A stretch of DNA of 64,000 bases, from positions 1 through 64,000 of the forward strand of contig JAURGZ010000001.1 of NCBI GenBank assembly GCA_030833525.1, read 5' to 3'. This document shows positions 22,722 to 27,589 of the stretch, piece by piece. The position numbers were made by a program, and so were the translations under genes. Origin of the DNA: Bacteroidota bacterium. GTDB taxonomy: Bacteria > Bacteroidota > Bacteroidia > NS11-12g > UBA955. Every line of letters starts with the position of its first letter. Position 1 is the stretch's first letter. A model generated the notes under the pieces. It was not told where the DNA came from. It did no database searches and saw only the letters and a list, made by a program, of their open reading frames with translations.

Positions 22722-23672
22722 ATGAGAATTCTAGCCAACGACGGCATCGATGCAGCTGGTAAATCCATTTTGGAAGCCGCTGGTTTCGAGGTCATCACAG
22801 ATAATATAGCCCAGGCTGATTTGGCAAGCCGAATCGCTGAATTTGACGCCTTGATTGTGCGCAGTGCCACCAAGGTAACGGCCGAAATCATGGATGCAGG
22901 TCAACTGAAACTCATTGCTCGTGCGGGTGTGGGTATGGACAACATCGACTTGAAGCATGCCGGTTCCAAAGGCATCGTCGTGGTCAATACGCCCAACGCA
23001 TCTTCGCGCAGCGTAGCCGAATTGGTGTTTGCCCATTTGTTTTCAGTGGCTCGTTACTTGCATGAATCGAATCGCAACATGCCCCAGCACGGCAAGGAAG
23101 ATTTTGCTTCCATGAAGAAAAAAGCCTCCAATGGTTTTGAACTCATGGGCAAGAAAATCGGGATTGTAGGCTTTGGCCGCATCGGCATCGAGGTGGCTAA
23201 AATGGCCATTGGTTTAGGCATGGAAGTACTGATTTACGACTACAAGGAACGCGAGTTCGAAGTGGTGGTTCAACACCATACGCCCTATCAGCAGCACAAT
23301 TTTCAAGTGGTGCTCAAAGGGCAGAAGTTGGAAAGCGTGTTGGCCCATTCTGATGTTGTAACGGTGCATACCCCTGGCAGTGCTGAAGTAATAGGTTCTG
23401 CTGAATTGGCACATATGAAATCAGGTTCTGTATTGATCAATTGCGCTCGCGGAGGAGTGGTCAATGAGCCTGCACTTCGTTCAGCCTTGGAATCAGGTCA
23501 TATCGCCTTTGCGGGTGTCGATGTTTTTGTGCAGGAGCCTCCTGTGAACGACGATTTGTTGCTGGCGCCCAATGTGAGTTTGTCTGCCCATGTTGGAGCC
23601 TCTACGCCAGAAGCCCAAGAGCGAGTGGGAATCGAGTTGGCCGAGCGCATTTGCCAACACTTGAAAGCTTAA
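22722..23672 (+). CDS. serA: D-3-phosphoglycerate dehydrogenase
   Basis: 'LIARAGVGMDNIDLKHAGSKGIVVVNTPNASSRSVAE', 'KKIGIVGFGRIGIEVAKMA', 'INCARGGVVNEPAL'. Confidence 0.93.
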   Translation: MRILANDGIDAAGKSILEAAGFEVITDNIAQADLASRIAEFDALIVRSATKVTAEIMDAGQLKLIARAGVGMDNIDLKHAGSKGIVVVNTPNASSRSVAELVFAHLFSVARYLHESNRNMPQHGKEDFASMKKKASNGFELMGKKIGIVGFGRIGIEVAKMAIGLGMEVLIYDYKEREFEVVVQHHTPYQQHNFQVVLKGQKLESVLAHSDVVTVHTPGSAEVIGSAELAHMKSGSVLINCARGGVVNEPALRSALESGHIAFAGVDVFVQEPPVNDDLLLAPNVSLSAHVGASTPEAQERVGIELAERICQHLKA

Positions 23673-23676
23673 CGCT

Positions 23677-24879
23677 GTGAAATTCTTTCCATTTCGATCG
23701 CTGGTACCTCGTTCAGATACCGCGGCTCAGGTTACTTCGTTGGGTTCGGGTAAAATGCCCTTGAAATGGCTTCAAAAGCGAGCTCAAGATAATGCTTTGA
23801 GTTATTTGCGTGTAGTTAAGCCTGAATACATTCAGCCTGAATTGGAAGCGGGTACCGATGCGTACTATGCGGCATCCAAGGCCAATTTCGATGCTTTGTT
23901 GAATGAGAATGCGCTCGAAGAATGGCCAGAAGGTCTTTGCTATTACCGTCAATCCAAACCCGATGGTTCGCATTACGAAGGGTGGATCGTAGGAGTAACA
24001 GCAGAAGGATATAGAAATGGTCGTATTGTTCGCCACGAGAATACCATCAAATCCAAAGAAAACCGACTGGTGAAATACCTGCAAACCCTGCATGCCATGG
24101 CCGAGCCCGTGTTGTTTACCCAAAAACTACCCGCAGCGGTATTGACTTTGGGCAAAGAACTGGGAAGCGGTGCACCCCGCCTTCATTATACCGATGCACA
24201 GGGTTTGGTGCACGAGCTGTTTCCGCTGCCCTGCACTGACCCTCGCTGTCAGCAAGTACTGGAATCGTTGATGCAACTTCCCAAGGTGTACATCGCTGAC
24301 GGGCACCATCGGGTAGCCGCTTGTTCCACTTTCTTAGAGGGTCAAGAAGATCAAGGTTTCATGGCCTTGTTGCTAGACGATGAAGAGCTGGCTATCAAAT
24401 CGTTTCACCGAGTATTCACAGACCCATCGTGGACACAGACTTTGGAACAGTTTCAGGCTGACTTGGAAGCTTTGGGATTGAATCCTAAGCCCTGTGTCAT
24501 GGAAGGGCTAGTCATTCAGCACGGAGAATGTGTCCTGATGCACCGCGAGGGAACTTTGAGAGTGCAACTGCTCAAACCCGAGTCGACCCAGGCCGATGAG
24601 TTATTGGACGTGCACCAAGCCGAAATACAAGTGCTCAAGCCCTTGTTTGACGTTCAAGACTCCAGCCACGATGCGCGAATGAGTTTCATGCGCGGGGATA
24701 CACCCATGAGCGAATTGCAAAAGCAGCTCAACGAGGGCTGCATCCAAATGGCCATGGTTTTGGCTCCTTGCAGCATAGACGAAGTAAAGCAAGTGGGCGA
24801 TCAGGGTTTGATCATGCCTCCCAAAAGCACCTGGATAGAACCCAAGATGCAAACGGGAATGATCACGCAACTGTTTTAA
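23677..24879 (+). CDS. DUF1015 family protein with ParB/SerK-like DGHHR motif
   Basis: '[15 protein letters not shown]', '[15 protein letters not shown]', C-terminal '[23 protein letters not shown]' as in DUF1015 proteins. Confidence 0.85.
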
Positions 24880-25205
24880 AACAAACTCAATTGTTTCTTC
24901 TCGGGCTTGATCCCGAAAACCTCACCCAGCGAATCTTGCAATTCGTTGAGTGATTCTTTGCGCAAAGAGTAAATGCTGGAGGTTTTGACCGGCTTCATGA
25001 GAATGTAACCACCTTCTTTGAGTTTTTGTAGATGACCAGATACCGTGCTTTGGCTATAGGGTAGGGCGTCTACTATGTCTTGGCAAGTACAAGCGCCTTG
25101 CTGCTTCAAATGCAAGAGAATCGCAATGCGAGCGGGGTGGCCAATGGCCTTGCTCAATCGAGCTAGGGCTTGTAAACTATCTTCAAATGAATCGGTCTTT
25201 CTCAT
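24876..25205 (-). CDS. ArsR-family winged-helix transcriptional regulator, C-terminus QLSLF
   Basis: '[55 protein letters not shown]'. Confidence 0.9.
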
Positions 25206-25257
25206 GGCAATTTGAGGACCGCGAATATACGTTTATTCAAGTTTCAACTGAAAAAGG

Positions 25258-26163
25258 CTATGAAACTTTTTTGTGCTTCCATCGGCGATGACTCCAGAGC
25301 CAGTAAGCCGGTTGTTGGCGAATCTCGTTTTCGATGGCGGTGGCAATGGAATCGGTGATGGCACCCGTTGGTTCCAGAGACGGGTCTTGGCACAGCCAAT
25401 GCGTTCTGGCTTCATAGCGACTGCGTCCCACTTTTTGGCAGCTCAGGTAAACCAAACCGAGGTTCAATTTCTTGGCAATTTTTTCGGAACCCATCATAAA
25501 GGCCGTTTCTTGATTCAGGAAAGAAGTCCAATGGGCTCCTTTCCCCGAGGATGGACTTTGGTCGCCTATGAAGGCCGTGACCGTGCAATGCGCTTTGTTT
25601 TGGCTCATGATTCGCAGAATTTGCTCCATGGGCACAGCGTTAACCTGAAACCGAGTGCGCTGATGGAACATCAACCAATCAAAACCCGGGTTGCTCAGGG
25701 TTTTGTACACGCATTGAACCTTTTGCTCGCAGCTCAACTGGGACATGAGGCAAATCCATTCCCAATTTCCGCAATGACTCATGACGACAATGGCACTTCG
25801 TTGGTCGCGGTTCAATTCATCGTATATGGACTGGTCTACATTGACCATGCGTCGACTCAATTCTTCGGCTGAAATGCTGAGGCCCTTGATGGTTTCAACC
25901 AATACGTCGCAGAAGTGGCGATAAAATTCGCGTTCGATGGTTTTTCGATCTGCCGCCGATTTCTCAGGAAATGAATGGGCCAGATTTTCGCGCACCACCT
26001 TTTTGCGGTAACCGAACAGGCCATAAATCAAGACAAACAAGACATCTGAGATGCGGTGAAGCACCCAGAAAGGCAATAATGATAAGCCCTTGAATATGGG
26101 GTATACCAGCACGCGAAAGGCCCAAGGTGCGGGAGGTACGCTATGGCGCTGGTAATCTTCCAT
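25258..26163 (-). CDS. LpxL/HtrB-like lysophospholipid (lipid A) acyltransferase
   Basis: 'RISDVLFVLIYGLFGYRKKVVRENLAHSFPEKS', 'VMSHCGNWEW', 'FIGDQSP', 'PAYWLWSHRRWKHK'. Confidence 0.88.
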   Translation of the reverse strand: MEDYQRHSVPPAPWAFRVLVYPIFKGLSLLPFWVLHRISDVLFVLIYGLFGYRKKVVRENLAHSFPEKSAADRKTIEREFYRHFCDVLVETIKGLSISAEELSRRMVNVDQSIYDELNRDQRSAIVVMSHCGNWEWICLMSQLSCEQKVQCVYKTLSNPGFDWLMFHQRTRFQVNAVPMEQILRIMSQNKAHCTVTAFIGDQSPSSGKGAHWTSFLNQETAFMMGSEKIAKKLNLGLVYLSCQKVGRSRYEARTHWLCQDPSLEPTGAITDSIATAIENEIRQQPAYWLWSHRRWKHKKVS

Positions 26164-27233
26164 TATTTGAAGTAGCTGAAGTCTTCGCCTGCGGGCAAGG
26201 ATTGCAAACTGGCGTACATCAAGTCAATGAACGATTGCACATCGTCAAACTGAACCATTTCTACGGTGGTATGCATGTACTTCAGGGGCAAGGAAATCAG
26301 GGCTGAGGCCACGCCCATGCCAGAATAGGCAAAACTATCGGTATCGGTGCCTGTGCTGCGGCTTACTGCATTTCGTTGAATGGCAATATCTTTTTGTTTA
26401 GCGGCTCCTATGATATGCTGTAGCAACTTGTTTTGAACCGCAGGGCCGTAGGTAACCACGGCTCCTTTTCCGCATTGGGTATCGCCTTGCAATTTCTTGT
26501 TGTAAAGAGGGGCATGGGTATCGTGGGTGACATCGGTGCAAATCGCCACGTTCGGATTGATGCGGCGGGAAATCATTTCGGCACCTCTGAGTCCAATTTC
26601 TTCTTGAACACTGTTGACCACATACAAGCTGAAGGGAAGAGCGAGTTTATCTTCTTTGATTTTGCGCGCCACTTCAGCAATCATAAAGCCGCCCATTCGA
26701 TTGTCTAAGGCACGGCCTACGATGTAACGGTCATTTAACACCTTCATGTCTGCCTCGAATACAACGACGGCTCCAATGTGCACTCCTTTGTCTAGAACCT
26801 CTTGTTTGTTGGAACAGCCCAAGTCTACGCAGATATTCTCGGGTTTGGTTTCGGGGTCTTTCCCCATGCGCACGTGTACGGCGGGCCACCCGAAGACACC
26901 GTCGACGATTTGACCGCCTTCGCAATGCACTTTGCAGCGCATGCTAGGAGCAATTTGCCAATCGCTACCCCCGTTTCGAATCACATACAAATAACCGTCG
27001 TCGCTGATGTAATTGACAAACCAAGAAATCTCATCGGCATGGGCTTCGATGACCACTTTGTAGTCGCAGCCAGGGTTGATAACCCCAACGGCAGTGCCAT
27101 AGGTGTCGGTAAAAGACTCATCGATGTAAGGCTGGAGATAGTCGAGCCAAATCTTTTGACCGCTGTGTTCAAAGCCTGTGGGGCTTACGTTGTTCAAGTA
27201 GGTTTCCAGGAAATCGAGTGATTCTTTGCGCAT
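26163..27233 (-). CDS. M42 family metallopeptidase / endoglucanase-like
   Basis: 'VVIEAHADEISWFVNYISDDGYL', 'YIVGRALDNRMGGFMIAEVARK', 'VNSVQEEIGLRGAEM', 'TDTDSFAYSGMGVASALISLPLKYMHTTVEMV'; ORF may begin at 27251. Confidence 0.9.
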   Translation of the reverse strand: MRKESLDFLETYLNNVSPTGFEHSGQKIWLDYLQPYIDESFTDTYGTAVGVINPGCDYKVVIEAHADEISWFVNYISDDGYLYVIRNGGSDWQIAPSMRCKVHCEGGQIVDGVFGWPAVHVRMGKDPETKPENICVDLGCSNKQEVLDKGVHIGAVVVFEADMKVLNDRYIVGRALDNRMGGFMIAEVARKIKEDKLALPFSLYVVNSVQEEIGLRGAEMISRRINPNVAICTDVTHDTHAPLYNKKLQGDTQCGKGAVVTYGPAVQNKLLQHIIGAAKQKDIAIQRNAVSRSTGTDTDSFAYSGMGVASALISLPLKYMHTTVEMVQFDDVQSFIDLMYASLQSLPAGEDFSYFK

Positions 27234-27401
27234 GACCACGAATGTCGCCAATTCGCCGATTTAGACGGCGCCGGGTTTTCAACTTTGTTTGCACCGATGG
27301 GCAAATTTTGGGCAAATGGCTTTGGGCTGAGTCGGAGCACCGGGACTAGCTCGCCCTGCCGGGCTCGCTGATCCCTAGAGGGGGGAGTCCCAAACACCTA
27401 A

Positions 27402-27511: not shown

Positions 27512-27589
27512 TGGTGGGAGCTGAGGGATTCGAACCCCCGACCCTCTGCTTGTAAGGCAGATGCTCTAAACCAACTGAGCTAAGCTCCC
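27512..27589 (-). tRNA. tRNA-Val (anticodon TAC), CCA encoded
   Basis: Minus strand GGGAGCTTAGCTCAGTTGGTTTAGAGCATCTGCCTTACAAGCAGAGGGTCGGGGGTTCGAATCCCTCAGCTCCCACCA; cloverleaf arms visible, anticodon loop TTACAAG. Confidence 0.96.

Follow-up and report, generated by a model that had tools for sequence, protein, structure and literature searches.

Clamp-driven transcription control has been described for phage T4, and the bacterial clamp clients described in the cited literature are proteins of replication, repair, mobile elements and initiation control. In T4, a linker joins the clamp motif of gp33 and gp55 to the body of the protein, and in gp55 the motif lies in a disordered C-terminal part (PMC7892883; PMC9690074). 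Clamp motifs were also demonstrated by experiment in transposases, where they follow the weak consensus QLxLF, are usually C-terminal and conserve Q1 and hydrophobic residues at positions 4 and 5; alanine at Q1 and F5 of such a motif abolishes clamp binding (PMC4549789). A motif of this type was found at the end of a small ArsR-type regulator encoded in the first 64,000 nucleotides of contig JAURGZ010000001.1 (assembly GCA_030833525.1, Bacteroidota bacterium), a stretch referred to here as the window. The reading favoured here, with a probability of about 0.72, is that the protein is an autoregulating ArsR-type winged-helix repressor that has gained, at its C-terminus, a peptide for docking on the beta sliding clamp DnaN.

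The regulator and its C-terminal end

The gene and the parts of its product that matter for the argument are located in the window as follows.

24876 to 25205, minus strand, stop codon included: arsR-type regulator gene, 109 amino acids (open reading frame; ArsR/HTH family matches; orthologues align over the full length)
24879 to 24893, minus strand: C-terminal QLSLF, residues 105-109, predicted beta-clamp-binding motif (orthologue conservation and comparison with DnaE)
24879 to 24914, minus strand: unstructured 12-residue tail, residues 98-109, which holds QLSLF (predicted structure; linker variable among orthologues)
25011 to 25052, minus strand: predicted DNA-recognition helix, residues 52-65 (helix in the predicted structure; invariant QSTVS.HL among orthologues)
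25083 to 25091, minus strand: C39-T-C41 (CxC) of the ArsR-type protein (only C41 conserved among orthologues)

On the minus strand, positions 24893-24876 read CAA TTG AGT TTG TTT TAA, and the protein ends in KKQLSLF before the stop codon. The protein lies above the family cut-offs for HTH_5 (37.4 bits versus 22), HTH_20 (40.4 versus 27) and NF033788 (61.1 versus 55), and was assigned to ArsR/HTH_5 and HTH_metalloreg by Pfam and NCBIfam; an AAA+ domain was not found in the family search. The original prediction of QLSLF at the C-terminus of an ArsR-family regulator was thus confirmed by the codons, the open reading frame and both family collections. Fold comparison matched SmtB, CadC, CzrA and ArsR, and comparison with PDB sequences agrees on a winged helix. 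Modelling with AlphaFold2 and the family alignment gave a confident winged helix-turn-helix up to residue 97, where the last helix stops, and no structure for residues 98-109, with a mean predicted local distance difference test score of 62 for residues 101-109.

Given the local composition, chance would place an exact QLSLF at a protein end about 0.003 times per 1,800 genes. Genome-wide counts were taken from pattern searches, and no other plausible gene ending in QLxLF was found across the whole genome; the remaining matches were TGG continuations, very short frames and one frame of 64 amino acids judged non-coding. Likewise, Q..[LM]F did not stand at the end of any of the 383 other neighbour genes that encode 120 amino acids or more. 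That the end is not due to chance follows, more than from this single match, from its conservation across the family.

Conservation of the tail and the clamp motif of DnaE

Of 70 genomes from the same bacterial family, 62 encode an orthologue. Sixty of these genomes hold orthologues of at least 135 bits that align through residue 109, and a pair from the diverged genus g10 (genera are given by code) adds two, with the tails QQKLF and QQKLL; for one of the pair, the position between LpxL and XRE was checked. All eight family genomes that lack an orthologue are less than 90% complete (by count). Among 61 distinct orthologue proteins, and counting back from the end, Q at position -5 is invariant (61/61), F at -1 is kept in 60, and -2 is occupied by L in 55 and by M in 6. 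Position -3 is mostly S or T, -4 is L, T, M, A, S or Q, and -6 is K or R in 55. Allowed tails include QMSLF, QLSMF, QASLF, QTSLF, QTTLF and others, and the motif is kept in 13 coded genera. At linker positions -14 to -8, the entropy amounts to about 1.7 to 3.4 bits, with most linker positions at 2 to 3.4 bits, and the length of the linker varies as well.

The codons of the tail also vary, with CAA and CAG, six Leu codons and six Ser codons from both Ser codon families in use. This free codon variation with fixed residues points to selection on the protein level, and judged by it the tail is a short linear motif under such selection. Conservation of Q1, L/M4 and F5 at an accessible place, as expected of a beta-clamp-type motif, was found in the ArsR tail.

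The replicative polymerase DnaE, a known clamp partner, carries an internal GQTSLFG in the same genome (DnaE peptide KISGQTSLFGAAF), and DnaE homologues of relatives show Q[TGMSFAN][SG][LM]F at the same place (30 aligned loci/genomes). QTSLF and QASLF are common to ArsR tails and DnaE motifs, QTSLF being the ArsR tail in genus g13. A second DnaE-like protein of the genome has GQEALFP. In this comparison, the variants of the ArsR tail and of the internal DnaE clamp motif in these genomes follow one set of rules. The DnaN of the genome (G000; 373 amino acids) was aligned over its full length with solved clamps, with PDB 8dt6 as the best match and the P. aeruginosa and E. coli clamps also among them, and retains L155, T172, L177, P242, V247 and the MPM end. 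On this alignment, and with the E. coli residues that we take to line the binding pocket, the cognate DnaN retains most of that pocket.

It had been proposed to check QLSLF in orthologues, with unrelated C-termini counting against a clamp-binding function. The check turned out in favour of the motif: the C-termini are not unrelated, Q..[LM]F is retained at the extreme end of the protein and its variants resemble those of DnaE. From this we infer that the tail very probably binds the DnaN clamp.

Outside the family, only homologues of at most 110 bits were found, both in family f2, which makes up the remainder of the order, and in 396 genomes across the phylum. All but one of the lower-scoring homologues whose sequence was read have a Cys-rich end such as NCC, and the motif end occurs in none of them. 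In a tree of the DNA-binding part calculated without the tail, a strongly supported branch divides the motif-bearing from the CC-tailed proteins, and the motif-bearing side includes a single foreign row, a distant Bacillota sequence whose branch is very long. The simplest reading of these data would be a single gain of the tail in the ancestor of the family. A phage origin was rejected, as one viral-contig scan (plasmids were not searched) yielded just two relatives, both distant and motif-free. The sister ArsR clade, which is found across the phylum (L068-L096), almost always ends in Cys-Cys (NCC, KCC), which is perhaps a metal or redox site.

CxC residues, candidate promoter and gene neighbourhood

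The original prediction had also pointed out a CxC at the position typical of metal-sensing ArsR proteins. This CxC is present within GACTCQD, at residues 37-43 of the protein, and the remark holds for the protein itself but not for metal sensing as a property of the family. CxC is present in only 11 of 59 scorable orthologues, which belong to the genus of the window and to parts of g5 and g6, and a two-Cys site is therefore not a family property. Cys41 was found in 58 of the 59, and one lacks it. Metal-sensing ArsR proteins are recognised by a conserved Cys site with CxC in alpha-3; no such conserved site was found here, and metal sensing via CxC was rejected. A single-Cys redox or other input is possible. 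By its sequence, the protein is an ArsR-fold regulator and is not classed as a metal sensor.

Upstream of arsR, a candidate promoter element was identified.

25222 to 25229, minus strand: TATATTCG, candidate -7 promoter element (TAnnTTTG type) of arsR, 16 bp before the ATG (equivalents in orthologues)

The -7 promoter element of Bacteroidota is of the type TAnnTTTG. In nearly all orthologues, and in every genus (L009-L065, L097-L116), a similar element directly precedes the start of arsR, though LpxL lies close upstream. In g5 and g6, (A/G)CGATWA repeats follow directly after the promoter-like element (TATATTTGCaatt-CGATAA), and in g6 CGATWA occurs also about 30 bp upstream of it, in some cases as CGATAATTATCG. 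Because a promoter-like element precedes arsR, with repeated CGATWA half-sites in two genera, it is likely that arsR has its own promoter and represses itself. When genomes were searched with TATWTTTGN{4,8}CGATWA, arsR itself was recovered in most g5 and g6 genomes, and a site of the form TATATTTG...GCGATWA was repeatedly found before a cytochrome c gene in g5 (L201, L202, L209). This gene, the apparent start of an alternative complex III (Act-complex-like) operon, is a possible second target. An automated search of the regions before M42, LpxL and arsR brought up no clear dyad.

The neighbouring genes in the window are the following.

25258 to 26163, minus strand: LpxL/HtrB-type lipid A acyltransferase gene, upstream neighbour of arsR (family matches; syntenic)
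26163 to 27251, minus strand: gene for an M42 family peptidase, at the head of the run (family match, synteny)
23677 to 24879, plus strand: DUF1015 gene, convergent to arsR (stop overlaps the arsR stop)
22722 to 23672, plus strand: SerA-type 2-hydroxyacid dehydrogenase gene, convergent neighbour (conserved in part of the family)

In most relatives, the genes for the M42 peptidase, the LpxL-type acyltransferase and arsR follow in this order on one strand, and the convergent side is occupied by SerC-SerA-DUF1015 or by an XRE gene; genus g6 has a nitroreductase gene before arsR instead. A conserved MRKE start suggests that the true start of M42 is at 27233. At 24874-24881, the stops of arsR and DUF1015 overlap within TTTTAAAA, and both proteins end in Phe. 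A tRNA-Val (tac) lies directly upstream of M42 on the minus strand (27512-27589), and a tRNA precedes M42 in several relatives too. In genus g13 (L106:4433-4840 and 13 other loci), a DUF3127 protein ending in DDLPF is encoded directly upstream of M42-LpxL-arsR, and this end resembles the protein-interaction tail of single-stranded DNA-binding protein.

Proposed mechanism and comparison with known systems

QLSLF could be a chance match in one protein, or its F could be a by-product of the palindromic sequence common to the arsR and DUF1015 stops. The two stops do overlap there, but the expectation of about 0.003 per genome and the presence of the motif in 13 coded genera, including those with an unrelated convergent XRE gene, reduce this explanation to a negligible one. 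A chance match was rejected by the conservation seen in the orthologue alignment, and the stop overlap as the cause of F by its retention beside unrelated XRE neighbours. The tail might also have a structural role, like the C-terminal helices of SmtB and CadC, and complete either the dimer of the ArsR protein or its winged-helix fold, so that no partner would be involved. ArsR proteins indeed dimerise via terminal helices, but such a role is very improbable here: the linker varies in length and, unlike the last five residues, drifts in sequence, the model places the tail outside the fold and with low confidence, and the sister ArsR proteins end in unrelated CC tails.

Several points weigh against a clamp-docked repressor. 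The pocket of the own DnaN departs from that of E. coli at H175N, R176K and R246A. An exact CGATWA repeat was not found in the arsR promoter of the window, the repeats being clear only in g5 and g6, and the TATWTTTGN{4,8}CGATWA search yielded no credible regulon or target that would explain a coupling to replication; its other matches were scattered and the controls were not empty. Furthermore, a peptide of five residues could serve another partner. With only Q, L/M and F strictly kept, the signature is small, and the tail might be a conserved linear motif with another target, for example RNA polymerase, a protease adaptor or the product of a neighbouring gene, its likeness to clamp motifs being coincidental. 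This is rather improbable, as the spectrum of variants matches the DnaE clamp motif of the same genomes down to identical QTSLF and QASLF, the motif is placed, like that of known clamp clients, on a C-terminus that is free and flexible (PMC4549789), and a DnaN with the pocket is present. Clamp binding without a role in gene control would be conceivable if the protein were a replication-initiation or post-replicative factor in the manner of Hda or YabA, or if the clamp merely kept it near DNA. Hda/HdaA and YabA are clamp-bound initiation regulators (PMC3836487; PMC12779278), and the lack of a convincing regulon would fit. However, the recognition helix is intact and invariant, a dedicated promoter with operator-like repeats is the usual layout of an autorepressor, and an AAA+ domain is absent, and this explanation is considered unlikely.

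According to the preferred reading of an autoregulating repressor with a clamp-docking tail, the N-terminal 97 residues would bind DNA as a dimer, and one flexible tail per subunit, ending in Q-x-[S/T]-[L/M]-F, would enter the hydrophobic pocket of DnaN in the way of DnaE and clamp-recruited transposases. The dimer would thereby offer two tails to a ring with two pockets and could be held both by clamps at the fork and by those that remain on new DNA. The likeliest consequence would be that replication sets the amount of repressor at its operators, in one of two directions: the repressor might be delivered to freshly replicated promoter DNA, or be drawn away while many clamps are loaded. For any regulatory consequence of clamp recruitment, whichever its direction, the chances are about even. 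The more specific idea of a cellular promoter-specific repressor that is carried by the sliding clamp, with fork passage or the number of loaded clamps directly setting repression of its regulon, is tentative and slightly less probable.

The conserved tail points to a possible connection of DNA replication with gene control that has not been described before. No clamp-tailed ArsR protein or similar bacterial one-component regulator or transcription factor was found in the open-access literature. If true, a chromosomal one-component regulator with a conserved clamp motif would extend the cellular roles of the clamp to gene regulation and provide a chromosomal counterpart of the clamp-dependent transcription of T4. 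It would also offer a small tractable system (109 amino acids, two point mutations) for the re-setting of promoter-specific repression behind the replication fork.

ArsR/SmtB regulators are small dimeric repressors and commonly autoregulated. M. smegmatis SmtB (8qkf), an As(III)-responsive ArsR (6j0e), SrnR (7p6f) and RexT (7txm) share the winged-helix fold and the sequence family with the protein of the window, which differs from them by having no conserved metal site and by a clamp-motif tail not described for the compared families and structures. Hda/HdaA and YabA are likewise regulators held at the replisome by DnaN (PMC3836487; PMC12779278), but their targets are DnaA and the initiation of replication, and they do not belong to the winged-helix transcription factors. 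Insertion-sequence transposases are also DNA-binding and carry a weak C-terminal QLxLF in which Q1 and positions 4 and 5 are kept while the surroundings vary (PMC4549789); they are enzymes of mobile elements, whereas the gene of the ArsR-type regulator has a fixed syntenic place on the chromosome. In T4, recruitment of the late-transcription factors gp55 and gp33 by the clamp gp45 couples transcription to replication (PMC7892883; PMC9690074). These two, a sigma-like factor and a co-activator, are bound to RNA polymerase, have motifs of the LDFL type and use a trimeric clamp, whereas the protein described here would be a winged-helix regulator of cellular origin, with promoter specificity and a QLxLF motif of the bacterial kind. 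As far as this comparison goes, gp33 and gp55 are its nearest working analogues, by analogy and not by homology.
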